Source: a virus
Reading direction: 5' to 3' (one strand)
Virus record (IMG/VR): IMGVR_UViG_3300018049_001840
Location: 1-41,518 of that record
Length of the DNA: 41,518 nt
Positions 4,522 to 28,862 of this stretch are shown here, piece by piece; the stretch's first letter is position 1; each line of letters begins with the position of its first letter. The notes under the pieces were generated by a model. The model made no database searches. It was not told the DNA's origin and worked only from the letters and a program-made list of their open reading frames with translations. A program made the translations under genes and the position numbers.

Positions 4522-4725
4522 ATGACAGATTATCCAAAAAAGACTGGCGAAAATAGTTGGACTATACAAGTTCAAGAAAATAATAAAACAAAAGAACTTT
4601 TTATAGAACTTCCACCCGATGCTCTAGCACAAGTAGGATGGGATATTGGTGATGATTTAATTTGGGAAGATCTTGGAAATGGATCTTGGTCAATAGCCAA
4701 AAAAGAACTTGACAAAAACAAATAA
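4522..4725 (+). CDS. AbrB/SpoVT-like small protein
   Basis: A 67-residue protein with FIELPPDALAQVGWDIGDDL and a following WEDLGNGSWSIAK. The pattern of a proline-containing strand, then LxxxGWxxGDxL, resembles the swapped-hairpin AbrB/MazE DNA-binding fold, so a small transcription factor or orphan antitoxin-like regulator is possible. No toxin gene adjoins it. The start directly follows the upstream TAA. The 3' end of this gene carries the -35 element of the promoter that serves queE. The assignment rests on the pattern only. Confidence 0.6.
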   Translation: MTDYPKKTGENSWTIQVQENNKTKELFIELPPDALAQVGWDIGDDLIWEDLGNGSWSIAKKELDKNK

Positions 4726-4737
4726 GAAAGGTATAAT
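4709..4737 (+). promoter_or_regulatory. perfect sigma70 consensus promoter before queE
   Basis: TTGACA at 4709-4714 and TATAAT at 4732-4737 are separated by exactly 17 bp, both consensus. The predicted transcription start is A4744, one base before the queE ATG at 4745, so the transcript would be essentially leaderless. The -35 hexamer lies in the last codons of the upstream AbrB-like gene. In T4-like phages, strong sigma70 promoters drive early genes. Confidence 0.8.
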
Positions 4738-4744
4738 ATATATA

Positions 4745-5659
4745 ATGACAATAGCAACTGATAAGAAATACTACTTCAGCGAAATCTTTCACAGTATTCA
4801 AGGTGAAGGACATTATACAGGTGTACCTACTGCTTGGATACGTTTCTTTTTGTGTAATCTACAGTGTAATGGTTTTGGACAGATTGATCCTACAAATCCA
4901 GATACTTATGAATTACCATTTGAAGATTATGATACAAGTCAAGTAAGTCGTGTTGAAGACTTACCTGTTTGGGAGAAAGGTTGCGATAGTTCTTACACAT
5001 GGAGTAAGAAGTTTAAACATTTGATGGGTCAAAAGACTGCTGTCGAACTAGCACATCAAATTATTGATACTATTAAAACAGATTCAAATCCAGAAGGTTT
5101 GTTTTTACATCCTGTGACAGGACAAAGACAGCACTTCTGTGTAACAGGTGGTGAGCCTTTGATGAAGCATGGACAAGAAGCATTCATTGGTATTATGCGT
5201 GAATTTAAACGTATGAATAATATGCCAGCCAGTGTTACATTTGAAACTAATGGAACACAAGCACTAACACAAGAATTTAAAGACTATTGGAATAAAGAAG
5301 CAGATGATGAAATTGAATTGTTCTTTAGTGTATCGCCTAAACTATGGAGTGTAGCAGGTGAAAAGGCAAAGAAAGCAATCAAGCCCGAAACAGTAGAAGA
5401 ATATTTTTGGTTGTCTGATAGAGGACAACTTAAATTTGTTGTAGGAAGTGAACAAGCTCAATGGGATGAGATGGAAGATGTTATCTCACAATTTAAAGCA
5501 CAAGGGGTTGATTATCCTGTTTGGGTAATGCCTGTTGGTGCTAGAGAAGAAGAACAAACAGAGACAGCAGGTGCTGTTGCTAAGATGGCATTCGAACGTG
5601 GATACAACGTAGCCGCAAGGGTACACGTATACCTGTTTGGTAATGCTATCGGAACATAA
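4745..5659 (+). CDS. queE: 7-carboxy-7-deazaguanine synthase, phage type
   Basis: A 304-residue radical SAM enzyme that would convert 6-carboxytetrahydropterin to CDG in 7-deazaguanine (preQ0) synthesis. The N-terminus FSEIFHSIQGEGHYTGVPTA is the QueE signature, and FCVTGGEPLM is the SAM-binding GGEP region. The cluster Cys residues read FLCNLQC (Cys37, Cys41), then a 38-residue insertion before GCDS (Cys80), which replaces the usual compact Cx3Cx2C. The ATG at 4745 is preferred over the in-frame TTG at 4709 because that TTG lies in the promoter and upstream gene. Only a weak AAGAAAGG (4724-4731) precedes it. No QueC, QueD, FolE or DNA transglycosylase gene is in the window. Confidence 0.85.
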   Translation: MTIATDKKYYFSEIFHSIQGEGHYTGVPTAWIRFFLCNLQCNGFGQIDPTNPDTYELPFEDYDTSQVSRVEDLPVWEKGCDSSYTWSKKFKHLMGQKTAVELAHQIIDTIKTDSNPEGLFLHPVTGQRQHFCVTGGEPLMKHGQEAFIGIMREFKRMNNMPASVTFETNGTQALTQEFKDYWNKEADDEIELFFSVSPKLWSVAGEKAKKAIKPETVEEYFWLSDRGQLKFVVGSEQAQWDEMEDVISQFKAQGVDYPVWVMPVGAREEEQTETAGAVAKMAFERGYNVAARVHVYLFGNAIGT

Positions 5660-8759: not shown

Positions 8760-9044
8760 ATGACAGAAGAAACTAAAAATGTAGAGTCCGGACAAACTGC
8801 TGAAGCACCAGCTCCTGCCGAACTTACAATTAACGACTTGAATGCTATTAAAACTATTATTGATGTAGCATCAACTCGCGGTGCTTTTAGAGCAAACGAA
8901 CTAGAAGCAGTAGGTAAGGTGTTTAATAAATTGAATTCTTTCTTAGAATCAGTTACACCTAAGCAACCAGAGGGTGAAAATGCGCAACAACCTGCGCAAA
9001 CAGAACCAAAAACAGAACAACCTGCGCAACAACCTGCGCAATAA
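8760..9044 (+). CDS. conserved phage protein with PAQ-rich tail
   Basis: A 94-residue protein in three parts: an acidic low-complexity N-terminus, a conserved-looking helical core LTINDLNAIKTIIDVASTRG AFRANELEAVGKVFNKLNSF at about residues 22-61, and a Pro/Ala/Gln-rich tail made of repeated PAQ and EQPAQQ units. The core resembles a small protein present in many T4-like marine phages. AAGGAG precedes the ATG. The DNA of the tail is repetitive (cctgcgcaa units, 8989-9041), so its length may vary between relatives. Function unknown. Confidence 0.75.
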   Translation: MTEETKNVESGQTAEAPAPAELTINDLNAIKTIIDVASTRGAFRANELEAVGKVFNKLNSFLESVTPKQPEGENAQQPAQTEPKTEQPAQQPAQ

Positions 9045-9054
9045 GGAGAAAGTT

Positions 9055-9675
9055 ATGGCTTTAAAACATACAGGTAAAATGAAAAACAACAATGCGAAAG
9101 TACTAGTCGCATATCGTACGCTACCTGGAGAATCAGATAACGCTCTTGTTGTTGATGTTGCTCGTTTAACTGATGCGCAACACGACGAAATTATGAAAGT
9201 TGTTGAAAGCAACCAAGCACAAACAGCAAATGAACTTGCTGATGTACTTTCAAGACGCTATTTTCCAGACGGTAGACAAATGCTTATGGCACTACATACC
9301 GACGGTAGATTGAAAAAAGTAGGAACAACTGAAGTTATTATGACTCCTACTAATTCAGATACTGTTGTATTGTCTGAACTAAATCAAATGATTGCTGAAC
9401 AGAAAGGAATTACAGTTGATCAATTAGCAGTTACTGAAACAGAAGAAACTGTTGCTACTGCTAAAGAAATGCCAACTGCTACTGCTGAACCAGCACCAAC
9501 TGAAGTGAAGCAAGACCTAAATCAACCTTTGACTGACGAAGATCTAGCAAGATCATATCGCTCTCAAGCAGATAGATTGAGCAAAGAAGCGGCTCAGTTA
9601 AGACGTCAAGCAGAAGAACTTGTACCAACAAAGAAAAAGACTGCTAAAAAATCAGAAGTTGATGTAAGTGTCTAA
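9055..9675 (+). CDS. conserved phage protein, unknown
   Basis: A 206-residue protein. It begins MALKHTGKMKNNNAKVLVAY and continues with RTLPGESDNALVVDVARL, RRYFPDGRQMLMALHTDGRL and VIMTPTNSDTVVLSELNQMI, followed by a Thr/Glu/Pro-rich linker and a C-terminal Lys/Arg-rich helix. It resembles a conserved T4-like cyanophage/pelagiphage protein of unknown role. The ATG at 9055 is chosen over an upstream in-frame ATG (8974) because it has AAGGAG at 9043-9048 and the upstream extension merely reads the neighbouring repeat out of frame. Confidence 0.8.
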   Translation: MALKHTGKMKNNNAKVLVAYRTLPGESDNALVVDVARLTDAQHDEIMKVVESNQAQTANELADVLSRRYFPDGRQMLMALHTDGRLKKVGTTEVIMTPTNSDTVVLSELNQMIAEQKGITVDQLAVTETEETVATAKEMPTATAEPAPTEVKQDLNQPLTDEDLARSYRSQADRLSKEAAQLRRQAEELVPTKKKTAKKSEVDVSV

Positions 9676-9985: not shown

Positions 9986-10653
9986 CACAAGTAAAATTAA
10001 TTTCGTATTCAACAGCACCAGAAGAGGGACTTGATGATTGTCAAGAACTTATTGCTTTTTGTGCTAGGGTTTCTAATCCAAGCAACCAAATGAATAAAGA
10101 AACAAGCGAAAAACTAATTAAGTACTTGATTAAACACGCACACTGGTCTCCATTAGAAATGGTTAGTGCTTGTTTAGAAATTAATACTACACGTGATATA
10201 GCACATCAAATTGTGCGACATCGTAGTTTCAGCTTCCAAGAGTTCAGCCAACGCTATGCTGATCCAGCAGAGTTCGGCAACCAGTTTGTTTTGCGTGAAG
10301 CAAGACTACAAGATACCAAAAATAGACAAAATTCAATTGAACTAGGTATTACACAACAAGATATGAATCTAATCAACGATTGGGAATCACAGCAACAAAA
10401 AGTGATTGATGCCGCTAAAGAAGCATATGAATGGGCTATAGAAAATGGTATTGCTAAAGAACAAGCTCGTGCTGTACTACCAGAAGGTTGTACTAAGACA
10501 CGGTTGTACATGAACGGTACTTTACGCAGTTGGATTCACTATATTGAATTACGTGGAGCAAACGGAACACAAAAAGAACACATGGAAATTGCCCATGCTT
10601 GTGCTGAAGTTATTTCTAAGATTTTTCCGCTGGCAAAGGAATTGAGTGGCTAA
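9982..10653 (+). CDS. thyX: FAD-dependent thymidylate synthase
   Basis: A 223-residue ThyX that makes dTMP from dUMP with FAD, NADPH and methylene-tetrahydrofolate. The diagnostic RHRx7S motif reads RHRSFSFQEFS at residues 79-89. HWSPLEMVSACLEI (54-67) and the C-terminal ARAVLPEGCTKTRLYMNGTL also match the family. The length is normal for ThyX. GAGGG precedes the ATG. It is the last rightward gene: its final 38 bp overlap the tail of the opposing radical SAM gene, and a terminator-like hairpin follows 27 bp after the stop. ThyX is common in marine phages and fits nucleotide production. Confidence 0.95.
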   Translation: MTQVKLISYSTAPEEGLDDCQELIAFCARVSNPSNQMNKETSEKLIKYLIKHAHWSPLEMVSACLEINTTRDIAHQIVRHRSFSFQEFSQRYADPAEFGNQFVLREARLQDTKNRQNSIELGITQQDMNLINDWESQQQKVIDAAKEAYEWAIENGIAKEQARAVLPEGCTKTRLYMNGTLRSWIHYIELRGANGTQKEHMEIAHACAEVISKIFPLAKELSG

Positions 10654-12025
10654 TACATTTATTGTAAAATTCTGTCAACTCGGGGAACGTTTTTAAAAAA
10701 TTCGTTCCTCGTCTTTTATCATGCTCATCAACAAACTTCCAAAAATCGACCCTATTTTCTAATAAACGATCTCCTGTAAATCGATTACTTTCAACCCATT
10801 TTATAACACGTTCCCATTTAGTTACATCAGTATCACTAAAGTAATTAAAGTTCCAATTTTTGGTATTTTCCTTCATAAAATCTAAACAATCGTACATAAC
10901 ATCCAAATGTTCATCATCCAAAATTTGTAAACTTAAATGTTCGGGCTCTAGCAAGTAAGGAGTGTCTATTGTAAAGCGATTATGCGTTAAGGTGTTATAC
11001 TTACGCTTCCACTCTAATATCCGCGCTAGTAGACCCTTAAAACGGTGCACAGACATGAAATTTACGGTGATCATGAGTCCACATTGTGCGTTAGGAACAG
11101 CATTCATAAACGTATCAACGTTCTTCTCCCATAAATCCAAATTCATTCCATTTCTTATATATTCTGCTTGTTCTCCCCAGGTATCAATACTAGTAAACAG
11201 TTGTACTCTATCTATTTTTTTATGCTGTGTTAATACAGTAACTTTGTTTATAAACTTATTAAGATTTCTTTGGGGAACACACATATTGGTGTTTACGCTA
11301 AATTCTAATTTTGGATTAGGATTCTTTTCCATATAATCCATTACTTTGAATACATTACTGCTTAATAATGGTTCGCCGCCTGTTACACGCAAAGTGTGTA
11401 GTTGAGGATATATCTCTGGAAACCATTTCCAAAATGCTTCAATATAAGGATTATCTTTTTCTTTATAAATCCATTGTTCACGATTTTTATTATTAGCATG
11501 ATATTGTCTTTTATTACGCTCTTGTAATAATGGATAATCTCCAAATTTATTAAATTCGTTTTCCCAGGCACTGCTAATACTAGGAGTACAATAACTACAT
11601 TTCATTTGGCATTCATTACCAAAATTGACTTCGAGATACTTTGGCGCTACGTCGGCATCCCATGGCATTGATTTAATTTTATCTATTGTGCCTTTTTCTA
11701 TTTCCTCAAACTCAGCACTACGAAAATGCCTATCACTTAACGAACCTGAATCTTCTAGTGCCCAGCAATAACTACATTCAGGCGGTCTCTCATCATTTAA
11801 CATCATTTTACGTTGTTCTTTTTTGTATTTGCTGTTATGTAATGCGCTAGGATTTTCTTTTAGTTCTTCTAAACTAACTTTGTGCATGCTTGGATGATAG
11901 CAACTATGATTGTCACCTGTATGTAAATGTATACTTACATGGTTCCATTTAGCCGTACAGAAACCCTTTCCAATTTTGGAACATATTTTCTTATATTTTT
12001 TATTTGGATCAGGTTTCCAAAACAT
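10616..12025 (-). CDS. twitch-type radical SAM protein
   Basis: A 469-residue radical SAM enzyme. The cluster motif Cx3Cx2C is NECQMKCSYC (Cys139, 143, 146), and RVTGGEPLL (about 213-221) contacts SAM. Extra N-terminal Cys residues (CYHP, Cys42; CSYC, Cys84 and 87) suggest an auxiliary cluster or metal site, as in the twitch/SPASM group. Such enzymes modify peptides, sugars or cofactors; the substrate is unknown. The ATG at 12025 has GAGGA in TTGAGGAAACTAAAA upstream; the longer start at 12040 is a TTG that overlaps this site. It is the last gene of the leftward glycosyltransferase cassette. Confidence 0.85.
   Translation of the reverse strand: MFWKPDPNKKYKKICSKIGKGFCTAKWNHVSIHLHTGDNHSCYHPSMHKVSLEELKENPSALHNSKYKKEQRKMMLNDERPPECSYCWALEDSGSLSDRHFRSAEFEEIEKGTIDKIKSMPWDADVAPKYLEVNFGNECQMKCSYCTPSISSAWENEFNKFGDYPLLQERNKRQYHANNKNREQWIYKEKDNPYIEAFWKWFPEIYPQLHTLRVTGGEPLLSSNVFKVMDYMEKNPNPKLEFSVNTNMCVPQRNLNKFINKVTVLTQHKKIDRVQLFTSIDTWGEQAEYIRNGMNLDLWEKNVDTFMNAVPNAQCGLMITVNFMSVHRFKGLLARILEWKRKYNTLTHNRFTIDTPYLLEPEHLSLQILDDEHLDVMYDCLDFMKENTKNWNFNYFSDTDVTKWERVIKWVESNRFTGDRLLENRVDFWKFVDEHDKRRGTNFLKTFPELTEFYNKCISHSIPLPAEKS
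10681..10717 (+). terminator. hairpin terminator after thyX
   Basis: CGGGGAACG (10681-10689) pairs with CGTTCCTCG (10703-10711) as a 9-bp stem with one G-U pair and a 13-nt A/T loop, followed by TCTTTT. It starts 28 bp after the thyX stop and lies inside the 3' end of the opposing radical SAM gene. The U-run is short, so termination may be partial. Confidence 0.5.
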
Positions 12026-12680
12026 TTTTAGTTTCCTCAAACTTTTCTTTTAGCCAACTAAAGTTGTTTATCTGTTGTAGATCTTTATTCTTAAATCCGT
12101 ATTCTCTACCAGCGATTGCCCCTAGTTTAGCATATTCAGCATTTTCAACATTATTAAATTTTTCACACCAAACGGTTAATCTATATTCGTCGTCTTTTGT
12201 ATTTCTCAGTTTAACTGTTCCGCTTGATAATTTAGTACATTCTCTAAAAGCAGTACGCCAAGTATGAAAAGGAGTACTGTTAAATCTGTGTATATTTGTA
12301 ACATAATTTACAGGAACAATATCAAAAGCAGTGGTCATGTCGACAGCATTATTATTTTTAAACAATCTACGATCAAACACTTTAATTCCGCCATGTCCGT
12401 ATACTAAATCATTTATAGGGTTTACTGCTCTAAAAACAAAAACTTTTGATTCGTCTGTTAGTTCATTTAAAAAAGTTGTATAAGAAAAGTTTTCTAACAA
12501 TTCACAATCAGCATCAAGAACAATAAATCTATTAGTTAAACTTTGTTCAGCACAATGTTTATGACTGTCATGTATTCCTTTACCAGATACAATCTTTTTT
12601 AAAGTTGGCAACTTTTCTTTTGCTTTTGAAAAGTTTTTATCAGCAAAAGGATCGTCGTATACTAAGAACCACTTGTCCAT
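12009..12680 (-). CDS. GT-A-like glycosyltransferase, family A copy 1
   Basis: A 223-residue protein with a GT-A nucleotide-sugar-binding pattern: strand FIVLDADCEL with DxD at Asp56/Asp58, then LVYGHGGIKVF (compare GNGGLKVW in its neighbour) and TWRTAFRECTKL. It is a shorter paralogue of the adjacent 302-aa protein: both share the N-terminal YDxPxAxxN pattern, the DxD strand, the GGxKV loop and the WRxxFRE motif. AAGGA precedes the ATG. It overlaps the radical SAM gene by 17 bp. It probably transfers a sugar from a nucleotide donor (family inference); donor and acceptor are unknown. Confidence 0.6.
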   Translation of the reverse strand: MDKWFLVYDDPFADKNFSKAKEKLPTLKKIVSGKGIHDSHKHCAEQSLTNRFIVLDADCELLENFSYTTFLNELTDESKVFVFRAVNPINDLVYGHGGIKVFDRRLFKNNNAVDMTTAFDIVPVNYVTNIHRFNSTPFHTWRTAFRECTKLSSGTVKLRNTKDDEYRLTVWCEKFNNVENAEYAKLGAIAGREYGFKNKDLQQINNFSWLKEKFEETKNVLET

Positions 12681-13570
12681 ATCTGATCCTTGTTATAATA
12701 AGATTTTCCTAAGTCAATTGCCTCTTGATATAAATCAACCATATGAAGACTTTGTTCTTCGTCAAAATATGCCCAATGAAAACCAAGTTTTTCTCTCAAT
12801 TCATTTCCTAACTTTTTGATTTTAAAAACAACATCGTGGCTTTCCATACCTTTAACTTCTTTGTTGTAAATTTTATCTAGTTCGCTAAAATCTCGCACAT
12901 TAATATAATTCCAATCGCTGTACGACATCAATGCTCCCATTCTAGCACCAAGAATAGAAAAAACTCCGTTTTCCACATGACTTCCAACTGAACACCATAT
13001 CCTTAATCTGTGTAAGTTATGCCAGTATACATCTTGTCTTATTTTATCAATTGGTGGTAAAACACCGCGCACTGTTAGCATTTTAACACCCTCTCGAAAA
13101 CCTGCTCTCCATGCTTGTTGTGGCGTTTTGTTAATCACAGTAGTACTAAACGATTCAGGAAAATTTTGATATCCTTTTTCCCAACAAAAGTCAACTTGTG
13201 CTCTATCGTCTACAGCGGCTTCATGTGTTTTCATATGTTTTACAAAATTTGTATTCCAAACTTTTAATCCACCGTTGCCGTAAATTAATCCATTAATATT
13301 ATTTTTTCCGCACCAACTATAACAAGTAATTTCCGGTATTTCATTAATTTCTATTTTAAGAAATACAGGATCTATTTCATTATCACCATCAACACTAACA
13401 AACCAATCTGTTTCGGCTTGTCTTGCGGCTTCTTTATGTGCATTATCACTACCTTTTACTCCGTGAATACGTTTTGCCCAAGGAACCATATTTTTCAACT
13501 TTGCCCAATTTTCTTCGGCATTAGGTTCGTCATAACTAATAAAAATAATATCAATATCTTCTATCTTCAT
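12662..13570 (-). CDS. GT-A-like glycosyltransferase, family A copy 2
   Basis: A 302-residue paralogue of the downstream 223-aa protein. The N-terminus IIFISYDEPNAEENWAKL leads to WFVSVDGDNEID (DxD at Asp61/Asp63), LIYGNGGLKVWN and AWRAGFREGVKML. The family A pair share these four blocks in the same order. This copy carries an additional C-terminal region of about 70 residues ending KDQIWTSGS. The start overlaps the stop of the upstream gene (ATGA), and its stop overlaps the start of copy 1. Tandem duplication followed by divergence is the simplest reading. A role as sugar transferase is inferred. Confidence 0.6.
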   Translation of the reverse strand: MKIEDIDIIFISYDEPNAEENWAKLKNMVPWAKRIHGVKGSDNAHKEAARQAETDWFVSVDGDNEIDPVFLKIEINEIPEITCYSWCGKNNINGLIYGNGGLKVWNTNFVKHMKTHEAAVDDRAQVDFCWEKGYQNFPESFSTTVINKTPQQAWRAGFREGVKMLTVRGVLPPIDKIRQDVYWHNLHRLRIWCSVGSHVENGVFSILGARMGALMSYSDWNYINVRDFSELDKIYNKEVKGMESHDVVFKIKKLGNELREKLGFHWAYFDEEQSLHMVDLYQEAIDLGKSYYNKDQIWTSGS

Positions 13571-14094
13571 AATATTGTGTATCCTGCGCTAGAATAGATT
13601 TTCTTATAATACAGTGAAAAATTTCCACTAAAAATATCTCTATAATCTATTTGATCAACTTCAAATACATTTGACTTATTTGTTTCACACTCAAAGTTTT
13701 GATATAAAAAATTAATATTCTTTTTTCTTGTCATCATTATATCAAACTTTCTATCTTGATCATGTTTGCCCTCAATTAGAATATGTGGCTTAGAGTTAAT
13801 AGTTTTAATAGTAATGGCTAAATCTGTATTATTTTGATTATAATTTATTTCTACTAATTTATTTAAAAATACATCTTCGTCTTTTACAGACGGATATAAA
13901 TCAATTAATAAAAACTCTTTACTATCTATATCAACTTTAAATTTTTTAACACTGTATTTTCCTATGGTTATATCATCAAATATACTCGATAGATCATCAG
14001 GAACAATAGCAGAATTTAATTGATTGTTCTCATGGGACATTACTTTTGTATATTCCCATATATTACCACTATCGTCATAAAAAATTTTATACAT
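13567..14094 (-). CDS. unknown protein in glycosyltransferase cassette
   Basis: A 175-residue protein with no family recognised. It begins MYKIFYDDSGNIWEYTKV and contains regular beta-type alternation (YSVKKFKVDIDSKEFLLIDL, TDLAITIKTINSKPHILIEG), ending SAGYTIL. It is coupled by overlap to the genes on both sides, so it is expressed with the glycosyltransferases. Its composition is very A/T- and Asn/Lys/Ile-rich, like the rest of this cassette. It may be an acceptor, an adaptor or a structural protein; the sequence does not decide. Confidence 0.65.
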   Translation of the reverse strand: MYKIFYDDSGNIWEYTKVMSHENNQLNSAIVPDDLSSIFDDITIGKYSVKKFKVDIDSKEFLLIDLYPSVKDEDVFLNKLVEINYNQNNTDLAITIKTINSKPHILIEGKHDQDRKFDIMMTRKKNINFLYQNFECETNKSNVFEVDQIDYRDIFSGNFSLYYKKIYSSAGYTIL

Positions 14095-14917
14095 CTTTTA
14101 TACCTTCTAAGAACAAACCTTTATAAACAGCCTGTATAACATCGAGCGGAAAGTCTTTCTCCGAATAATGAATTATATCGTTCTGAGCAAAATTTCCTAT
14201 AGTAATATTAGCTCTGTCATCTATATAGTAACCTAGATCTTGACTAATAGATGTGATACCTACATCTTGTAATTCAGACTTTAAATGTACAAACCTTGGA
14301 AATGGAATATCTAAGTAATCAATTCCTAAAATATTAGATGCTATACTAAATGCTTCATCTGTTCCTATCTCAGGGGGATACTTTTTACTCATATATAAAT
14401 TACGAAACTTTTCTTTATTTTCAGTAATTAACTGTACTAAATTAAAAAATTTTTGTGTTGTACCAGATTCTTTATTGAAATATGTAAAACCGCTATACAA
14501 TATAGGCAAATCATTTTCAATATATCCAGGACGGCATTTTAAACTTGTTAATTTAGTTCCGTTATATTTTAAAACTTTATTAGTAACAAATAATCCATTT
14601 GTTTTTGTAACAAAAAAATCAATCCAATGACTAATGTCCCTAGTAAATATCATATCAACATCTAAACAAACTGTATGTTTATATGGTGTCTGTAGATTCA
14701 TATAATTTCTCTGATCCCATCCTTTAAAATCATCATTAACAATGATCTTATCAAAAACAAAACTACTATCTAAGTTTCTTCTGTCTGTTATTAAACAAAC
14801 GGTATCATATCCTTTAGGTTGGGTCTTTTTAATACTTGTTGCTAAAACATAGGCCATTCTATGATAAATGTTTTTTGTGTCATTATTAACAATTAAAAGG
14901 TAACCAAAATCTTTCAT
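14087..14917 (-). CDS. GT8-like glycosyltransferase, family B copy 1
   Basis: A 276-residue protein with a GT-A fold signature. GYLLIVNNDTKNIYHRMAYV and the following TSIKK form the nucleotide-binding start, TVCLDVDMIFTRD carries the DxD (Asp86/Asp88), and ILYSGFTYFNK and GTDEAFSIASNILGI follow. This layout resembles GT8-type retaining transferases. It pairs with the next upstream gene as a divergent paralogue: both have LITD/LVTD, DVDxI and a DxAFxIA motif in the same order. AAGG precedes the ATG at 14094 of the downstream gene, to which it is coupled. Confidence 0.65.
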   Translation of the reverse strand: MKDFGYLLIVNNDTKNIYHRMAYVLATSIKKTQPKGYDTVCLITDRRNLDSSFVFDKIIVNDDFKGWDQRNYMNLQTPYKHTVCLDVDMIFTRDISHWIDFFVTKTNGLFVTNKVLKYNGTKLTSLKCRPGYIENDLPILYSGFTYFNKESGTTQKFFNLVQLITENKEKFRNLYMSKKYPPEIGTDEAFSIASNILGIDYLDIPFPRFVHLKSELQDVGITSISQDLGYYIDDRANITIGNFAQNDIIHYSEKDFPLDVIQAVYKGLFLEGIKDV

Positions 14918-15678
14918 GATAGTTCCTTTTCAAAATCTAATATTGTCTTTTTATTAAAAAAATGAAGATCAACATTTTTAAAAACCATAGGTTGGTGATT
15001 AACTAAACAGACAAAACGCTCTCCGTCAGTATGTAATATTTCATCTGTAGTTAGTTCAAGAAAATTTATTTTAGGTAGAGAATCAGAACTGTTTAAACCT
15101 TTAACTATATGTTCAGCTATTGTAAACGCATAATCATTTCTATAGTTTGATGCTTTAAATTTATATAACTCTCTATAAAAGTTATAATTTTCTTTTATTA
15201 GTTTTGCTTGATTAAAAATAGTTTCAGCAACATAATCCTTTTTAAAATATAATGTTGTTGCCCATTTCATACTCATTCCAAGCATGGGTATTTCGTCAGT
15301 TTCATAATTGTGTAGATTATAAACTCCTTCTCCCATCAAAAAACTTTCTGTATTATTAAAATATTGATTAAGTGTATCGCTGTTTACAATGTAATCAACA
15401 TCAATTACAATAGTTTCATCGTAAGGCGAAAGTCTAAAACTATCTAATCTAGAAATATTATAAAACGGTTGTATAACACTATCGATATTTCTCTTATTAC
15501 TCTTATCAATATCAACAGTAATTACATTATCAAATTCTGGAAAATCAACAGGAGAGTCAGTTACAAGAGTAACACTTTTATGTAATATTTTTTTGATTCT
15601 TTTAGCACATATACGTGCTAATTTAACATAATCAATTACGCCATTGTTATGAGCAAACAATAAAAATCCTTGAGTCAT
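14914..15678 (-). CDS. GT8-like glycosyltransferase, family B copy 2
   Basis: A 254-residue protein related to family B copy 1: GFLLFAHNNGVIDYVKLARI, SVTLVTDSPVDFPEFDNVI, TIVIDVDYIVNSD (DxD at Asp93/Asp95) and RNDYAFTIAEHIV. The C-terminus ILHTDGERFVCLVNH and NVDLHFFNK may form the acceptor side. GGAGA lies just upstream of the ATG, which overlaps the stop of the 120-aa gene (TAATG). No membrane segment or signal peptide is seen, so it should act in the cytoplasm. The donor sugar is unknown. Confidence 0.65.
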   Translation of the reverse strand: MTQGFLLFAHNNGVIDYVKLARICAKRIKKILHKSVTLVTDSPVDFPEFDNVITVDIDKSNKRNIDSVIQPFYNISRLDSFRLSPYDETIVIDVDYIVNSDTLNQYFNNTESFLMGEGVYNLHNYETDEIPMLGMSMKWATTLYFKKDYVAETIFNQAKLIKENYNFYRELYKFKASNYRNDYAFTIAEHIVKGLNSSDSLPKINFLELTTDEILHTDGERFVCLVNHQPMVFKNVDLHFFNKKTILDFEKELS

Positions 15679-16040
15679 TATATCTCCAAATCAAGATATC
15701 TGGCTGTACTTTTCTTTAATAATTCAAGTTCTTTAATATCATTATAATAAATGTCTATAGCAGTAAAGTATTTGTCTTGTATAGCATTATTAAAATCCTT
15801 TACACTTTTTATAAGTATTGGATTTTCGTTAGAATCAATAATAACAGTATCAGAACCTTTACCTTGTTGAAGTAGATAATTTACATATACTAGCAGATCA
15901 GTATCGACTTTAAATAAACCGCCTTCATAACCCAAAATAGAATTGGATTGGAATCTTTCTTTTGCTCGAAGTTTTTGAGAATTTAAAGTTCTTAACTTAT
16001 CTGAAGTTTCGATGATTCTTTGGATAGATTCTTTATTCAT
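15678..16040 (-). CDS. small conserved phage protein, 120 aa
   Basis: A 120-residue protein beginning MNKESIQRIIETSDKLRTLN, followed by SQKLRAKERFQSN, then LFKVDTDLLVYVNYLLQQGK and TVIIDSNENPILIKSVKDFN. It has a helical front and a small alpha/beta domain, and it resembles proteins seen beside structural genes in T4-like marine phages (by eye). AAAGG precedes the ATG. It heads the leftward cassette of glycosyltransferases after a 68-bp gap in which no convincing promoter or terminator was found, so readthrough from the structural block is possible. Confidence 0.7.
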   Translation of the reverse strand: MNKESIQRIIETSDKLRTLNSQKLRAKERFQSNSILGYEGGLFKVDTDLLVYVNYLLQQGKGSDTVIIDSNENPILIKSVKDFNNAIQDKYFTAIDIYYNDIKELELLKKSTARYLDLEI

Positions 16041-16108
16041 ACCATACCTTTAACATATACTATTAGTTATGCTAAAAATATGCTACTATAATGATTATTG
16101 GTTCTAGA
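16041..16108. other. 68-bp intergenic gap, no clear signal
   Basis: An AT-rich gap between the 417-aa structural gene and the 120-aa gene. It holds the AAAGG ribosome site of the latter. A 4-bp TGGT/ACCA inverted repeat around the upstream stop is too weak to call a terminator, and no NATAAATA octamer is present. Confidence 0.5.
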
Positions 16109-17362
16109 TTACCAGGAGTTAAGGATAGATATTGTATAGTTAACTGGTGTAGATGCTAATGTTACAGCACCAGTTGTATGTTGGAATGTTAATTCAAAAT
16201 TTCTATCAATATCAACGCGGCGAGCATAAGCGTTTGTACTTGAAGTGTCTGTTAGTGTTATTTTAAATACTAGATTTTTTTGATTTACTGTTTGTTTCAT
16301 CTCAACAACAACACTATGATCATCGTAAGCAGACCCGTAACCATTAATCGAAGTACCTTGAGCACTGAAAATCGTAGCATAAACACCTAAAGCATCAAAT
16401 GCTCCAATTGTAGAAATTTGTCTAGGATCACTTGCTAGACCCATTGCTGTTTTGCCTCTGGCTCCGACCCATAACGGAAATACTGATTGTAATAGATCTC
16501 GCCAGTGTCTATTCAAGTTTTGAACATTATCGTTATTTGCGTTACCTACGACCGATGACGCAAGATTTAACATGTCAAGTTTAAGAAGTCCACCAGTGTT
16601 AAAGAACTGTACAAAATCATAACCGTCTGTACCAGACCATGTAATACTAAATTCTAAATCTGTGATTCCATTCCAATCGTTTGTATTAACAACGTTTGAA
16701 GGTAGCGTGGGTGAAATTAATGTGTTTTCTAAATTAATAAATTTGTAATTATCAACTGCTGTTGCCACAGTATAAAAAGGCTCATATACGCTGTGATAAA
16801 TGATGTCGCCTTTTACAGGTGTTGAAATGTTTGTTGCTTCTCCGCCAGGTAAAAAGTTTCCAGGTCCTGGAGGAGCACCTGTAATATGCTGTACTACTTT
16901 TGCCATATCAACTCTTAAATTTTCAAATTGATTGGCGCTAATCATAAACTGAACAGCGTCAGCAGTATCATTGATAGCCCAAGGTGTATAACCAAATGTA
17001 TTAAAGTCGACGATTATTCTTGTAGAATCTAAAACTGTTTGAACTGTAGCAAAGTTATTGGCAATAGGTTCATTGCCCCAGCTATTACTGAAATTATTAA
17101 AGTAAATTACTTCACCAACAATTAAATGATGATCGTTAGCAAAATTAATCTGTGCTTGTGCTTCTGAACTAATTTGTACAATATTTCTAGTAAAAGGATA
17201 AGGCTTACTTTGTAGCTCAGATTCTGGAAGTCCATAGCCTGTACCTTCAACATATACACCAGGAGAACCAGCAAATTCTTGTAATGGTCCTAGCTGGGCA
17301 TACACAACGCTTTGCATTGCGTCCCAGTCTGAATAAAGTATAGGGTCAAATTGTGCGGCCAT
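16109..17362 (-). CDS. virion structural protein, 417 aa
   Basis: A 417-residue protein beginning MAAQFDPILYSDWDAMQSVV, with GEVIYFNNFSNSWG, VKGDIIYHSVYEPF and a C-terminal beta-rich part (VVVEMKQTVNQKNLVFKITL, NFELTFQHTTGAVTLASTPV). The composition (Asn, Thr, Ser, Gly; few charges) and the position at the end of the fibre block point to a tail or fibre component. No enzyme motif is seen. GAGGA precedes the ATG, and its own late promoter lies 24 bp upstream, so it can be expressed separately from the fibres. Confidence 0.75.
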   Translation of the reverse strand: MAAQFDPILYSDWDAMQSVVYAQLGPLQEFAGSPGVYVEGTGYGLPESELQSKPYPFTRNIVQISSEAQAQINFANDHHLIVGEVIYFNNFSNSWGNEPIANNFATVQTVLDSTRIIVDFNTFGYTPWAINDTADAVQFMISANQFENLRVDMAKVVQHITGAPPGPGNFLPGGEATNISTPVKGDIIYHSVYEPFYTVATAVDNYKFINLENTLISPTLPSNVVNTNDWNGITDLEFSITWSGTDGYDFVQFFNTGGLLKLDMLNLASSVVGNANNDNVQNLNRHWRDLLQSVFPLWVGARGKTAMGLASDPRQISTIGAFDALGVYATIFSAQGTSINGYGSAYDDHSVVVEMKQTVNQKNLVFKITLTDTSSTNAYARRVDIDRNFELTFQHTTGAVTLASTPVNYTISILNSW

Positions 17363-17385: not shown

Positions 17386-17393
17386 TATTTATA
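17386..17393 (-). promoter_or_regulatory. late promoter TATAAATA
   Basis: On the - strand this reads TATAAATA, the exact T4 late octamer. The predicted start is near 17380, giving an 18-nt leader to the ATG at 17362 that contains GAGGA. Bases 3-5 of the octamer are the TAA stop of the 601-aa fibre gene. Confidence 0.75.
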
Positions 17394-19194
17394 CTTTGAG
17401 AACACACTCAACTAATTTTTCATTTTCGTTTGAATCACTTTCCAACGCCACACCTACCATTTGATAATGTAAAAGCACCGATGAATATTTGGCAACACCG
17501 TTACCGGCAACATATAATGGTTGTCCTTTGGTTACTGGTCCAATGACTCTAACAGGAACACGTCCTTTTAAACCAATTGCTTGGCCATCAATATCACTAT
17601 TCATTAAGTAAGCAGGCTCTGCTGATATAACACCAATTGGAAAACCAGTTTCGATACATGAAACTGCTTCACTATCTCCTGTTCCAACCATCATTACAGT
17701 TCCGATTGGATAATCTTCATCAGTTGTATATTTTTCTGCTAAGTCGGCGTACTGAGCAGATGTAGCAGTACCATTAAAATATCTAGCATCTACATCTCCG
17801 CCGCCACTACGTAATACAATAGTGTCAGGTGTTTTATTGACATCCAATATTTTACCGTTAACGCTTTGTGTATCTGTTGATTGGCCATCAAACAAGTCAG
17901 CAGTAATTGTTCCTGCTGAACTTCTAATTGGAATAGTAGCAAAACCTGGAGTATGTGTCTCACTTGGGTTTAAATTAATTACTTTGTTTGCGGTAACCGC
18001 TTCAGCGGCAAGTCCGTCTAGTGATCCAACAAACTGTCCTGTGAATTTTTGTGCTGTAAACTCTCTGGTTGCTTGATCGAAAATTTTAATTGTAGTAGTT
18101 GGGCTTGTTTGAGCATAAAGATCTCCGGTAACATCACCAATTACATCTCCATGTACATTACCTACAAGTTCACCTTTTAGATTTTCTGACCAAATATTTT
18201 TAAATTTGCGTGACTCGAGTCCAAGATTAACTACTCCAGTTGCTCCTGGATAGATAGTATTAAAACTATCTGTGTCTGTAGTAAATGCCTGTTCTCTACT
18301 AAATGTTAAAAAGTCAAGTTTATCAGTTGGTTGACTAGGATTACTTGAACTAATAGTAATTTTACCATTAACTTGATTTTCAAGTGCTGGGTTTTGATCA
18401 CTATTAATATAAATTTTAAGTGCTTTAACTGGATTACCAACTGTAAAACCAACATCAGCAAATGATTGTTCTGTTGTAAAGCCTTCAGTTCCGTCTGTTC
18501 TAACAAAACGTGTTTGATCTAGTCCTCCAAGTTTTTCTGCGTTACTTGCTGTACCAAAAAATCTAAAACCAGCACTATCACTAATACCAGTTGTACCGTT
18601 AACGCTGTTTAGTGTAATACCTTTTTTAACTTGACGTCCTGTTTCACTAAAACCTGCTAGTGTATTATCACTGCTAAGTGTAAAATCGTCATCATTACTA
18701 AACACAGCAGTAGTAATTCCGCCAACAACAGCACGTAGAATAACATGAGAAGTATTATTTGTATCTTTTACTACTTCTGTAACAATTTGTGAAGTACCAA
18801 AACCTGGAGCACTTTGTGGTCCAATTAAAACAAAGTTAGAACCATTCCAAGCACTCAACTGATTTGTTTGGCTATCAAACCAAAGATCACCTTGTGATAG
18901 TCCAACCGGTGGACTAGCTCCTATTTCAGCTCCACTTGCTGTTCTAAATCGCTGTCCATCATAAAATTTAAGTTTTAAACTATCTGTATCAAACCAAACT
19001 TGACCTTGAATTGGTTTTTCTGGTTGTACACTATTAGAAAAACTTTCAAGTAGGTGTAAAAAGTTTTCATTTTGTACTTCACCATAGCCGCTATAGTTCC
19101 TTCCAACTAATTTAATATCAGTTGTAGTGTCAATAGTACCGTCTGCTACGCTTACTAAAAATGTTCCGTTGTATTTGTCTACTTGATATGCCAT
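17389..19194 (-). CDS. tail fibre-like protein with YADLAEKY C-terminal domain
   Basis: A 601-residue member of the five-paralogue fibre family. The shared N-terminal block LVGRNYSGYGEVQNENFLHL is at residues 29-48, followed by two hairpin units (GQVWFDTDSLKLKFYDGQRF and GDLWFDSQTNQLSAWNGSNF) and LIGP. The middle has Gly-Asp repeats (GNVHGDVIGDVTGDLYA) typical of fibre shafts. The C-terminal domain starts YADLAEKYTTDEDYPIGTVM and ends in a small beta-domain (KGRVPVRVIGPVTKGQPLYV), a type found at the end of many marine phage structural proteins. It is probably the distal part of a tail fibre (inference). Confidence 0.8.
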   Translation of the reverse strand: MAYQVDKYNGTFLVSVADGTIDTTTDIKLVGRNYSGYGEVQNENFLHLLESFSNSVQPEKPIQGQVWFDTDSLKLKFYDGQRFRTASGAEIGASPPVGLSQGDLWFDSQTNQLSAWNGSNFVLIGPQSAPGFGTSQIVTEVVKDTNNTSHVILRAVVGGITTAVFSNDDDFTLSSDNTLAGFSETGRQVKKGITLNSVNGTTGISDSAGFRFFGTASNAEKLGGLDQTRFVRTDGTEGFTTEQSFADVGFTVGNPVKALKIYINSDQNPALENQVNGKITISSSNPSQPTDKLDFLTFSREQAFTTDTDSFNTIYPGATGVVNLGLESRKFKNIWSENLKGELVGNVHGDVIGDVTGDLYAQTSPTTTIKIFDQATREFTAQKFTGQFVGSLDGLAAEAVTANKVINLNPSETHTPGFATIPIRSSAGTITADLFDGQSTDTQSVNGKILDVNKTPDTIVLRSGGGDVDARYFNGTATSAQYADLAEKYTTDEDYPIGTVMMVGTGDSEAVSCIETGFPIGVISAEPAYLMNSDIDGQAIGLKGRVPVRVIGPVTKGQPLYVAGNGVAKYSSVLLHYQMVGVALESDSNENEKLVECVLKV

Positions 19195-19213
19195 GTTTTT
19201 CCCGCTCTATACG

Positions 19214-19221
19214 TATTTATT
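19214..19221 (-). promoter_or_regulatory. late promoter AATAAATA
   Basis: On the - strand this reads AATAAATA, matching NATAAATA. The predicted start near 19208 leaves a 14-nt leader before the 601-aa fibre ATG at 19194. The octamer contains the TAA stop (19217-19219) of the 156-aa gene. Confidence 0.7.
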
Positions 19222-19687
19222 CAAACGTCTTTACCGCTTCAGCTTGTGCTTTATCATCATCTACTGATACAAATGTATAAGCATCGCTGTTTGTTGAGTA
19301 CGCTGTGATTTTTTCATCTAAATTAGCTTTTGCAGCATCAATAAATGCTTTCATTGCTGTAAATTCATCAGTGTTAGGCACATCAGATGCGTCTAACATT
19401 TCAATAATAATATTCAACTGCTTATGAATTGGGTATTCTTCGAGTATTTTTACATTAGTATTATATTTTAAAGTTGCTTCATTAACTAATGGTTTCTCTG
19501 TTCTGCTTTGAATCGTTCCTGTGTCGTAATCTCCATGCCAATAATCTCCATTATCGGAATCCATTTCAACTACTTTAATATTAAACTTTTCTAAGTCAAC
19601 GTAAGAAGTGTCTTGATCATTTTCCATCATGGCAACAAGAACACCATTAGACTTCATAAAGATTAATTTTTTAGTTTCTATTGCCAT
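19217..19687 (-). CDS. fibre-assembly chaperone-like protein, 156 aa
   Basis: A 156-residue acidic protein. The N-terminus LIFMKSNGVLVAMMENDQDT resembles the start of small proteins that accompany fibres, and EEYPIHKQLNIIIEML is reminiscent of the EYPSIxEQLD motif of tail-fibre assembly proteins. The rest is helical and Asp/Ala-rich. It sits directly upstream of the 601-aa fibre, where such chaperones are often found. GGGGAG precedes the ATG. It lacks any catalytic motif. The chaperone call rests on position and a weak motif; a minor structural role is the alternative. Confidence 0.5.
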   Translation of the reverse strand: MAIETKKLIFMKSNGVLVAMMENDQDTSYVDLEKFNIKVVEMDSDNGDYWHGDYDTGTIQSRTEKPLVNEATLKYNTNVKILEEYPIHKQLNIIIEMLDASDVPNTDEFTAMKAFIDAAKANLDEKITAYSTNSDAYTFVSVDDDKAQAEAVKTFE

Positions 19688-19688
19688 A

Positions 19689-20180
19689 TTATGCTCCCCA
19701 TGCCAGTACTAAACTATACTTTGGCTTTTCATCTTGTCCTATTTCTGTTACTTCATGTTCTAAATCTATAGGCATATCAACAACAGCACCAGGTATTTCT
19801 TCAACTAAATGACCATCGCCATTATTATCATACCATTTAAAGTGAGGTTTATCACTTTGTAAGAATACTAATTTAAATTTCCAATAACTTCCGATTGAGT
19901 CTTTATGTCGTGGCAAGTAGTCGCCTGGATCATATCTATTAAGTGTAACACTTTCAACAAATGTTTTGTCTTCAGGAATTGTTTTCCAAATTGCGTCCAT
20001 TAATTCATCTGGCATGTGTGTATGAAACATACTTTTCATATTACTTACACCATACTTTGTTTTGAATTCAAAAGCGTCTCCATCTGATCTCATTGAAAAT
20101 TTGTCTGAATACTTTTCAGCAAGTTCAACTATTTCAGTTGGATTTGAACAATAATTTTCTATAAGATTAACCTGAGACAT
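19689..20180 (-). CDS. 2-oxoglutarate/Fe(II) oxygenase-like protein
   Basis: A 163-residue double-stranded beta-helix oxygenase candidate. The iron-binding HxD is in YLPRHKDSIGSYWKF (His92, Asp94), and the distal His is His142 in LEHEVTEIG. The position that binds 2-oxoglutarate, usually Arg in RxS, is Lys154 in PKYSLVLAW. The substrate is unknown; hydroxylation of a protein side chain or of a small molecule is possible. It lies inside the fibre block, overlapping the 594-aa fibre gene by 14 bp and sitting one base before the 156-aa gene, which suggests co-expression with fibres. Confidence 0.65.
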   Translation of the reverse strand: MSQVNLIENYCSNPTEIVELAEKYSDKFSMRSDGDAFEFKTKYGVSNMKSMFHTHMPDELMDAIWKTIPEDKTFVESVTLNRYDPGDYLPRHKDSIGSYWKFKLVFLQSDKPHFKWYDNNGDGHLVEEIPGAVVDMPIDLEHEVTEIGQDEKPKYSLVLAWGA

Positions 20181-21951
20181 ATATCCAACTATTCCCCGCT
20201 TGATTAACTTCGTAAATTAAATTATTATTTCTAGTAGGATTGTTTACAGTTGTTGTAACAGTTACACTACTAACAAAAGTTCTACCAATCCAACTACTAT
20301 ATCCTAAAGTACCTATTGATGAAACATTTTGACTTGTACTTGCTACATGCGCTCTTGTTCCAACTTCGAAATTACTTACTGGAGCAAGAGTATTAAGCAA
20401 TGATGCTACTGATCCGTTACCCGATCCTGTTTCACTTAATCCTCTGGTATCTAAACTTAAGAAAATTGTTCTACTTCTAATTGCTGTATTAACATACTGT
20501 ACAGTTGCCGCATGATCATTCAATGTAGGCTGTGCTGTGATTGTTAAATTTCCAACCATAGTATCGCCAGACTTAGAAACTTTAGTACTATCAACAACAG
20601 TTATATTTTGACTTCCGTCAAAAACAACTCCATTTATTTGTGCTGTACCTGCTAATCTTGAAGCAGTATCTGCGTTACCGTTAAATGTACCGTACCAATC
20701 TTTTGTATTACCATTGTAAGCAATACTATCATCAGTTGCGAAAATATCTCCCTTAAAGTCACCAACTACTCTATTAACGACTGTAAGTGTATCTGAATTT
20801 ATATTTGTTATTGTAGCATTAGTACCAGTAAATGTTTTTGTACTTGCTTCGTAAACATAGTTGTTAGCACTATCTAAAATATTACCTTTTAGATCGCCGA
20901 TTAATGTACCATTTAATTCATCAGTTAACTTGTTGGCCAATGTTAGTCCGCTATCGCTAACTACATTACCATTTAGTGTTGCGTCAACTGAATCAGCATA
21001 TATTTCTCTAGAATGTATTTCTCTATATTTTTTTCCACTCGAACCAATATTATATCTTTCTGTTGTTCCAGGTAAAAATCCTACATTTGAAAATACAGCA
21101 ACATCGTCGTCTGTGGTTCCTGTTTTAATTCTAACTCTTAGTGTGTTACCTAAACTGTTTTCGATTACTGCTTCGTCGCCATTATCAATAGCAATTCTCA
21201 AATCGCCATCTGTTCCAACAGTTAAACCAGCATCGTCATAAGTTGAACCACCTGGTGCTCTAAGAACAAAATTACTAATATCTAATCCAGTAAATCTTTT
21301 TGTATCTCCAGCAGTACCCCAAAAACGATGATCACCTGTGGTAACGCCGTCTGTACCTGTATTAACTAATGTAATACCTTTTTTAATGTTTGTAAATCCT
21401 GGAATACTTTCGATAGTACCGATTATAAAATCATCATCCGAAATTATACCAACTACTGTGTTATCAATTACAAGTTTTACAATAGCATGAGCAATGTTAC
21501 TATCATCTCTAATTAGCGTCGAAGTTAGTTTGGTTTCATCAAAACCTTCTGCTCTTTCTGGACCAATAAGTTCAAAGTCTGTTCCATTCCAAACACTAAT
21601 TTGTCCAGAAGCATTATCATACCAAAGATTACCTAAATCTTTACTTTGTAATCCAGTAGGTGGAGTTGAACTCGAATCAAGGATAGATAAACTACGCCAT
21701 TGATTATCGCTACTTCTAAACTTAATTTTATTATTTAGATCATCATACCATAACTGTCCAGGAATGCTTTTGCGAGGTTGTGTATCTCCTCTAAAACTTT
21801 CAAGTAGGTGTAAGAAGTTTTCGTTTAGAATTTCGCCATATCCAGCATAATTTTTACCTACAAATCTTAAATCAGTTGCTGATGTTTCAACTGTTTGATC
21901 AGGTACTGTTGTTTGTAGTACACCGTTGTATCTGTTTACGTTATATGGCAT
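20167..21951 (-). CDS. tail fibre-like protein, 594 aa
   Basis: A fibre-family paralogue. The N-terminal block is FVGKNYAGYGEILNENFLHL at residues 30-49, followed by GQLWYDDLNNKIKF and GNLWYDNASGQISVWNGTDF units with LIGP. The shaft contains LNGTLIGDLKGNI and WYGTFNGNADTASRLAGTAQ, then INGVVFDGSQNITV and NLTITAQPTLNDHAATVQYV, all common in long- and short-tail-fibre shafts. The tip region starts RSRTIFLSLDTRG and is related to that of the 667-aa paralogue. It is downstream of the 118-aa chaperone-like gene; no late promoter of its own was found. Confidence 0.8.
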   Translation of the reverse strand: MPYNVNRYNGVLQTTVPDQTVETSATDLRFVGKNYAGYGEILNENFLHLLESFRGDTQPRKSIPGQLWYDDLNNKIKFRSSDNQWRSLSILDSSSTPPTGLQSKDLGNLWYDNASGQISVWNGTDFELIGPERAEGFDETKLTSTLIRDDSNIAHAIVKLVIDNTVVGIISDDDFIIGTIESIPGFTNIKKGITLVNTGTDGVTTGDHRFWGTAGDTKRFTGLDISNFVLRAPGGSTYDDAGLTVGTDGDLRIAIDNGDEAVIENSLGNTLRVRIKTGTTDDDVAVFSNVGFLPGTTERYNIGSSGKKYREIHSREIYADSVDATLNGNVVSDSGLTLANKLTDELNGTLIGDLKGNILDSANNYVYEASTKTFTGTNATITNINSDTLTVVNRVVGDFKGDIFATDDSIAYNGNTKDWYGTFNGNADTASRLAGTAQINGVVFDGSQNITVVDSTKVSKSGDTMVGNLTITAQPTLNDHAATVQYVNTAIRSRTIFLSLDTRGLSETGSGNGSVASLLNTLAPVSNFEVGTRAHVASTSQNVSSIGTLGYSSWIGRTFVSSVTVTTTVNNPTRNNNLIYEVNQAGNSWIYVSG

Positions 21952-21962
21952 CCTTCGCTCCG

Positions 21963-22319
21963 TTACCTAATTGCCCTAGCGGCATTTTCTCTTTCTTGTT
22001 CTAATGCTAGATATTCATCTTCAGTCAAACTGGTTTCAATACCTAGTGCTTTTTCTCTTGTATGTCTAAGTACCTTCCAATCAGTACTTGATAAAAATTC
22101 TTTATGTTCGATATTTGCTTTAGCATCTGCTTCTTCTTGTAGCTCAGACGCAGGTCTCAAAATAACTGATTTGGTAGCAACATCAAAGTAATATTTTCCG
22201 CCTTCAATAAGATCCATTTTTTCTTGTGTGATTTCAACCACTTCAATACTGCTAGGCACATTTGGCCTGTAATTTAATATTGATGTTACTTCACTATTTT
22301 CTAAACAAACGTAATGCAT
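21963..22319 (-). CDS. fibre-assembly chaperone-like protein, 118 aa
   Basis: A 118-residue protein beginning MHYVCLENSEVTSILNYRPN. A short beta N-terminus is followed by a helical C-terminus with EFLSSTDWKVLRHTREKALG and SLTEDEYLALEQERENAARA. The SSTDWxxxR...L...Y...R arrangement matches the tail assembly chaperone (APC-type) domain carried next to fibre genes in many phages. GGAG precedes the ATG, and the 540-aa fibre gene lies one base upstream. It probably helps one of the flanking fibres fold or trimerise (inference). Confidence 0.65.
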   Translation of the reverse strand: MHYVCLENSEVTSILNYRPNVPSSIEVVEITQEKMDLIEGGKYYFDVATKSVILRPASELQEEADAKANIEHKEFLSSTDWKVLRHTREKALGIETSLTEDEYLALEQERENAARAIR

Positions 22320-22320
22320 G

Positions 22321-23943: not shown

Positions 23944-23975
23944 GTTTTTTCTTCCATTATATCATATTTACCGTA

Positions 23976-25979: not shown

Positions 25980-25994
25980 TTATACTTTGCTCCG

Positions 25995-28854: not shown

Positions 28855-28862
28855 TATTTATT
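28855..28862 (-). promoter_or_regulatory. late promoter AATAAATA
   Basis: On the - strand this reads AATAAATA (NATAAATA consensus). The start is expected near 28849, with a 27-nt leader before the ATG at 28822. The octamer contains the TAA stop (28858-28860) of the giant gene. It should drive the 209-aa gene and the fibres downstream. Confidence 0.75.

Follow-up and report, generated by a model that had tools for sequence, protein, structure and literature searches.

A conserved operon of putative glycosyltransferases and a radical SAM enzyme next to the tail-fibre genes of uncultured phages

We analysed a 41,518-nucleotide (nt) viral DNA stretch (IMG/VR virus record IMGVR_UViG_3300018049_001840; the whole of this stretch is called the window hereafter) and found in it an operon of seven minus-strand genes, running from 16040 to 10616 in the order P120, GA1, GA2, U175, GB1, GB2 and rSAM (Table 1), which recurs as one unit in many viral contigs. 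The folds of the GA2 and GB1 models, the paralogy within each of two gene pairs and the conserved active residues make this set look like four glycosyltransferases plus one radical S-adenosylmethionine (SAM) enzyme. Our preferred reading, to which we give a probability of about 0.5, is a late operon whose enzymes would assemble a short core glycan, with a virion protein of the tail-fibre region as its most likely carrier.

According to the open reading frame (ORF) listing, the genes overlap at all six junctions, by 1, 4, 8, 4, 19 and 32 nt in gene order. The last of these values depends on the listed rSAM start (a TTG at 12040), which is probably wrong, since rSAM relatives start at an ATG equivalent to 12025; with this probable start, 15 nt downstream, the GB2/rSAM overlap becomes 17 nt. 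The first-pass annotation, made from the sequence alone, had placed the overlap-joined cassette at the right coordinates; it wrote of six genes while listing seven, and seven is the number found. At its far end rSAM is convergent with thyX, the two genes overlapping tail to tail. The GC content is 26–30% across GA1-GA2-U175 (window positions 13501-16500), versus 31–37% in the remainder of the window. Only rSAM is recognised among the seven proteins by the family libraries searched (Pfam, PHROGs and NCBIfam).

Relatives are found in at least 599 IMG/VR contigs by a scan with the GB1 alignment and in at least 570 by a scan with the GA2 alignment; among these contigs are some of 150–364 kb. We counted gene adjacency in 186 fetched viral loci (some of these overlap as pieces of the same contig, and not all are independent). 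Adjacency is kept in all cases for P120-GA1 (155 out of 155) and GA1-GA2 (177 out of 177), and in nearly all for GA2-U175 (179/182), U175-GB1 (177/178), GB1-GB2 (177/179) and GB2-rSAM (159/165); the gene ends nearly always overlap, and the order is preserved down to ∼30% GA1 identity. The gene order is not a matter of chance, because neighbouring pairs adjoin in 96–100% of cases. Fetching by GB1 or GA2 favours loci that contain these genes, so we searched again with an unrelated neighbouring gene (window 8974-9675) as the anchor. This gave 46 contigs that extend for at least 5 kb towards the module: the glycosyltransferase core is directly visible in 35 of them, nine have it further along the same contig and two end before it; no sufficiently long contig without the core was found among the 46. 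Candidate counter-examples, in which the neighbour lacked the core within 10 kb, could each be explained by a long tailoring island or by the end of the contig. Each glycosyltransferase pair is single-copy in eight contigs of 128–364 kb (for one of them, G006, the weaker GA1 was left unscored; these large-contig searches rest on IMG/VR records, which may be incomplete). No match was found among the INPHARED phages by tblastn with GB1, GA2, GB2, GA1 or P120 (from the window or from relatives). The conserved order, the single copies and the neighbour-anchored search support a co-inherited module, in line with the dedicated pathway proposed by the first-pass annotation: the same gene set in a fixed order was seen in the 186 IMG/VR loci, and the genes were not found scattered in related phages.

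The AlphaFold2 (AF2) model of GA2, built on an alignment of 39 sequences, has a predicted local distance difference test score (pLDDT) of 92.3. All 50 matches listed by Foldseek against the PDB are glycosyltransferases, nearly all of them GT8, and the top ones are XXYLT1 (xyloside xylosyltransferase 1; E-value 1.2e-7), LARGE1, glycogenin and GlyE (probability 1.00, TM-score ∼0.5). On the strength of this model, GA2 can be confidently predicted to have a GT-A fold with GT8-type topology; GA1, a paralogue by profile comparison (99.3%, hhalign), would be expected to share the GT8-type fold. The pair resembles the GT8 enzymes glycogenin, XXYLT1, LARGE1 and GlyE in fold, in the DxD motif and in a distal His-x3-Lys: residues D86, D88, H250 and K254 of GA2 and D93, D95, H239 and K243 of GA1 are 100% conserved (111–115 relatives). 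It differs from them in that the identity of GA2 to its structural matches is ∼10–15% and in that neither GA1 nor GA2 has a Pfam match; the canonical glycine of the HxGxxK motif is not retained in either. Since no family in Pfam, PHROGs or NCBIfam matches GA1 or GA2 at E<=0.001, we call these proteins GT8-fold rather than members of GT8. Searches of PDB sequences with the GA2 and GB1 sequence profiles gave no significant match (GmaR, at E 0.12, is a mere hint), and no relationship between the GA pair and the GB pair was detectable by profile comparison.

GB1 models as a glycosyltransferase of GT-A fold (AF2 pLDDT 90.3; alignment of 43 sequences) from a family that has no entry in Pfam, PHROGs or NCBIfam. 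With few exceptions, its Foldseek matches in the PDB are GT-A enzymes, and those of GT2 type predominate (RmlT, chondroitin polymerase, SunS/ThuS and WrtF). GB2 is a paralogue of GB1 (profile E-value 1.6e-43, hhalign) and would share the GT-A fold. The DxD residues of GB1 are 100% conserved (111–115 relatives); D58 of GB2 is 98% conserved, and both of its aspartates are invariant across an 18-sequence alignment. Neither protein matches a GT2 family model, the sole sub-threshold match being that of Glyco_tranf_2_3 to one distant GB2 (E 0.033). Many relatives have an N-terminally extended GB2, of 345–767 amino acids (aa) in total (e.g. L028:8869-10236 and L033:3407-5434), and the extensions are by appearance degenerate repeats of the GB domain. 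The four transferases named in the first-pass annotation thus resolve into two paralogous pairs, supported by the models of GA2 and GB1 and the profile homology of GA1 and GB2; both modelled folds are GT-A, and the motifs that it had read (DVD and DVD in the GA pair, DGD and DAD in the GB pair) are present and 98–100% conserved in about 100–119 non-identical relatives.

rSAM matches NF033640 (NCBIfam; twitch domain-containing radical SAM) over its full length (E-value 1.1e-98, 330.9 bits against a cut-off of 170, profile positions 2-398 of 398), as well as Pfam Radical_SAM (E-value 1.7e-8). With this family it shares an N-terminal four-Cys region and the CxxxCxxC motif; among 100 relatives, C144, C148 and C151 of the latter are 100% conserved, and the N-terminal auxiliary-cluster cysteines C28, C47, C89 and C92 are conserved in 99%. 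These matches agree with the earlier description of a twitch-type enzyme with extra N-terminal cysteines; they also place rSAM, there counted as part of an undescribed set, in a family that already has a name. What sets it apart from NF033640 at large is its firm tie to an operon of glycosyltransferases and a single fusion with GB2: in one locus (L184) the two form a single 808-aa frame, a single case in which an assembly error is possible in principle. The best rSAM match in INPHARED has only 24% identity (Vibrio phages K566/K567).

The two remaining proteins of the operon are small. The P120 residues GG.F, D69 and P74 are invariant in 92 relatives, and P120 has no Pfam or NCBIfam match over the cut-off. 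U175 has the lowest mean pairwise identity of the seven operon proteins (0.32); in one relative (L187) this domain forms the C-terminal end of a longer protein (444 aa), a region of which weakly resembles CBM5/12 (E 0.0093, below the cut-off). We considered a Tyr or Ser of U175 as a glycogenin-like acceptor; S160 (94% conserved) and Y162 (79%) exist, and this candidate was set aside, having no further support.

Downstream of the core, the number of genes on the same strand varies among relatives between zero and about eight or more; among them are one to four further rSAMs, NAD-epimerases, a uridine diphosphate (UDP)-sugar dehydrogenase (UDP-glucose-dehydrogenase type), 2-oxoglutarate (2OG)-Fe(II) oxygenases, GDSL-type hydrolases and unknowns. 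The window lineage has no such island, and its rSAM abuts thyX. The eight large relatives have 1–14 matches to NF033640 each, and epimerases are present in six of them. The first-pass remark that sugar-nucleotide genes are lacking holds for the 41.5-kb fragment and fails for many relatives, which have an epimerase or a UDP-sugar dehydrogenase beside the module or elsewhere.

Parts of the module are also found in bacteria. The trio GB1-GB2-rSAM, without GA1, GA2, P120 and U175, is present in Bdellovibrionia contigs from metagenome-assembled genomes (MAGs) (L188, L191 and L196; in L191 it adjoins MoxR/DUF58-type genes), and in another Bdellovibrionia contig (L208) one gene is inserted in the trio. 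Lone GB1 relatives are found in Rhodobacterales (L203 and L204, near position 10000), and the one in L204 (Ruegeria) lies beside a GT-1 type enzyme. Together, the trio and the lone GB1 genes suggest that the GB-rSAM part can function alone, and these loci offer test systems outside phages. Several further MAG matches have the core in full; these contigs are probably of phage origin and were binned with bacteria. Genes with a caspase domain (Peptidase_C14) were seen near the GB1 homologue in both L203 and L204.

Upstream of P120, two large genes, V417 and F601, are transcribed in the same direction as the operon, and an F601 homologue lies at most three genes upstream of P120 in 107 out of 115 loci. 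The sequence TATAAATA has a single copy in the window (7.5 expected), with its TAAATA core beginning 29 nt ahead of the V417 start; in T4, this sequence is a mark of late genes. Among relatives, TAAATA is found 15–50 nt before P120 in 65 out of 89 distinct upstream sequences (73%), before F601 in 70 out of 139 and before V417 in seven out of 23, and only in eight out of 722 before the internal genes GA1 to rSAM and in none out of 21 before thyX. By analogy with T4, the operon is probably expressed late, and in the window lineage the TATAAATA element ahead of V417 probably serves the whole block. The operon lies on the strand opposite to the DNA-metabolism genes. Scans of the block for sigma-70 promoters (50 promoter-like sites versus 37 in shuffles) and for terminators (three terminator-like sites versus 2.4 in shuffles) were uninformative.

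We infer the glycan product, the virion target, the order of steps, the rSAM reaction and the roles of P120 and U175 as follows. The operon would be switched on late and a core glycan assembled on a virion protein near the fibres. The GT8-fold pair (GA1 and GA2) and GB1/GB2 would add sugars in series from host nucleoside diphosphate sugars, and rSAM would use radical chemistry on a sugar or on the acceptor, probably at a point close to the action of GB2. Neither P120 nor U175 would be catalytic; they may serve as acceptor, adaptor or chaperone. The tailoring genes of the islands in relatives would decorate the constant core differently in each strain. A virion target, such as the fibres named in the first-pass annotation, is favoured by the position of the operon and by the late-promoter motif, and the sugar chemistry encoded in the islands fits a glycan product. 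We propose more tentatively that a large aquatic jumbo-phage group shares a universal glycan operon of this kind, which would make a constant, possibly radical-modified tail glycan with strain-specific decoration; such a phage layout would be the counterpart of the constant-core/variable-antigen arrangement of bacterial surface glycans.

Several observations weigh against a virion glycan. No sugar-nucleotide pyrophosphorylase was found, the NTP_transferase family being matched in none of the eight large relatives; activated sugars are for this reason presumably made by the host and altered afterwards, in agreement with the host sugar donors proposed earlier. No function could be recognised for P120, U175 or V417, nor is there a known acceptor site for the proposed glycan. 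The structural similarity of GB1 to its Foldseek matches is weak (best E-value 6.8e-4, TM-score ∼0.3, probability up to 1.00). The window lineage has no motif directly before P120 and would depend on the copy at V417. The carrier phages are uncultured, and adjacency to tail fibres is also seen in pelagimyophages, where modification of the host O-antigen has been proposed (PMC7029224).

In the main alternative, the operon would remodel the host surface (O-antigen or capsule) during infection via lipid- or lipopolysaccharide (LPS)-linked acceptors, blocking superinfection or the re-adsorption of progeny. LPS synthesis frequently involves GT8 enzymes. The GT8 genes of pelagimyophages have been read in this way, and the host-recognition region of these phages likewise combines tail fibres with GT8 and radical SAM cassettes (PMC7029224). 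The downstream island resembles a sugar-decoration island, and the Bdellovibrionia trio and the Rhodobacterales GB1 beside a GT-1 type enzyme also fit. We nevertheless consider this alternative less likely: across widely differing sequences, every relative of sufficient length has the core, fixed and in single copy, which suits a need of the virion better than an optional surface change; the late-promoter-like motif is common to the operon and the fibre genes; and the module has no recognisable flippase, polymerase or initiating phosphoglycosyltransferase (the search did not extend genome-wide).

Two further readings fit less well than a virion or host-surface target. In the first, rSAM and the glycosyltransferases would modify P120 or U175, to be released or injected, in a pathway like those of ribosomally synthesised and post-translationally modified peptides (RiPPs). 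Twitch/SPASM radical SAM enzymes often mature peptides, rSAM has weak matches to RiPP maturase models, and the peptide S-glycosyltransferases SunS and ThuS are among the weak structure matches of GB1. However, the block has no recognisable precursor-like peptide, leader, protease or transporter, P120 and U175 have no conserved Cys (at the 85% and 75% levels, respectively), and the extra rSAM copies of the large relatives cluster in regions also holding nucleotide-sugar epimerases; this reading is very improbable, and the peptide target named in the first-pass annotation found no support. In the second and least probable, the enzymes would glycosylate phage DNA as a shield against restriction (like T4 or TET-associated glycosyltransferases), with rSAM helping to make the modified base; the late-type motif, the fibre-gene neighbourhood and the strand opposite to the DNA-metabolism genes speak against it, as do the GT8 fold of GA2 (the T4 glucosyltransferases are of GT-B fold), the lack of a TET/JBP match in the eight large relatives (a search without positive control) and the presence of a Thymidylat_synt/hydroxymethylase-type gene in only one of them, even though thyX adjoins the operon and DNA is a frequent substrate of phage glycosyltransferases, a possibility also raised by the authors of a report on moraphages (PMC12619734).

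That report describes moraphages as large, mostly freshwater/aquatic jumbo phages with T4-type structural genes and a sigma factor, and lists four orthogroups of putative glycosyltransferases in their core genome (PMC12619734). The number is the same as here and the lineage is likewise one of large aquatic phages, and as a guess the four orthogroups may be GA1, GA2, GB1 and GB2; in contrast, no radical SAM partner, operon, gene order, promoter or tailoring island was found described in the available part (PMC12619734). Our literature search found no description of the operon, its rSAM or its regulation. The first-pass suggestion of an undescribed system therefore stands for the operon and its regulation and not for the idea as such, since core-genome glycosyltransferases of a large-phage lineage are already on record (PMC12619734). 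The pelagimyophage host-recognition cluster (PMC7029224) shares with our loci the cassettes of tail fibres, GT8 and radical SAM; that cluster is described as hypervariable throughout, whereas our loci have a constant core of seven genes with a variable island behind it. Phage glycosylation cassettes are already known; the one described here includes a GT-A family (GB1/GB2) absent from the three libraries searched.

If the virion is the target, adsorption, recognition and persistence would be influenced by a glycan in many aquatic jumbo phages that are abundant and uncultured; the layout of a constant core and a variable island predicts virion glycotypes specific to the strain. A functional precedent is the glycosylation of mycobacteriophage virions, reportedly described by Freeman et al. 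in 2023, in which glycans are placed on virion proteins of tailed phages; the hosts are unrelated, and to our knowledge it involves no radical SAM enzyme or comparable fixed operon. The operon also gives an uncharacterised radical SAM family a defined genetic partner, which makes the substrate of rSAM directly testable.

Table 1. Genes of the operon and features upstream of it (window coordinates)
Feature	Position	Strand	Description	Basis
P120	15678..16040	-	First gene of the operon, 120 aa; small protein with invariant GG.F, D69 and P74	
GA1	14914..15678	-	GT8-like glycosyltransferase paralogue, predicted; D93-x-D95, H239...K243	Profile homology to GA2
GA2	14087..14917	-	GT8-fold glycosyltransferase, predicted; D86-V-D88, H250-Y-S-E-K254 (HxGxxK-type)	AF2 model
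U175	13567..14094	-	Fast-evolving 175-aa protein between both glycosyltransferase pairs	
GB1	12662..13570	-	GT-A fold glycosyltransferase of an unnamed family, predicted; D61-G-D63-N64	AF2 model
GB2	12009..12680	-	Shorter paralogue of GB1; D56-A-D58	hhalign
rSAM	10616..12025 (listed 12040)	-	N-terminal-twitch radical SAM enzyme	NF033640
V417	16109..17362	-	Large protein directly upstream of P120; candidate virion protein and candidate acceptor	
TATAAATA	17386..17393	-	T4-type late-promoter-like element ahead of V417	
F601	17389..19194	-	Tail-fibre-type protein; ATAAATA ∼25 nt before its start	phrog_19602 tail fiber, E 2.5e-13

V417 has no family match in Pfam or PHROGs. Five large proteins of fibre or virion appearance (601, 594, 540, 667 and 731 aa) are encoded at 17389-28190 (minus strand); four of them share N-termini of PHROG 14394/15511 and the 594-aa one has a similar N-terminus by eye, which suggests a paralogous fibre set. 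Between two of these fibre genes, a 163-aa protein (19689-20180, minus strand) without Pfam match shows, by eye, an HxD...H pattern like that of 2OG-Fe(II) oxygenases. On the plus strand, the window contains a QueE-like radical SAM gene (4709-5659; phrog_2076, E 1.5e-54), which is separate from the operon rSAM and may indicate 7-deazaguanine metabolism in this phage, as well as a xanthine-phosphoribosyltransferase-like gene (587-1126; 9.2e-12, below the cut-off) and a glutathione-peroxidase-like gene (1128-1610; 1.8e-33, below the cut-off). A 4163-aa ORF (28858-41349, minus strand) lies at the end of the record.

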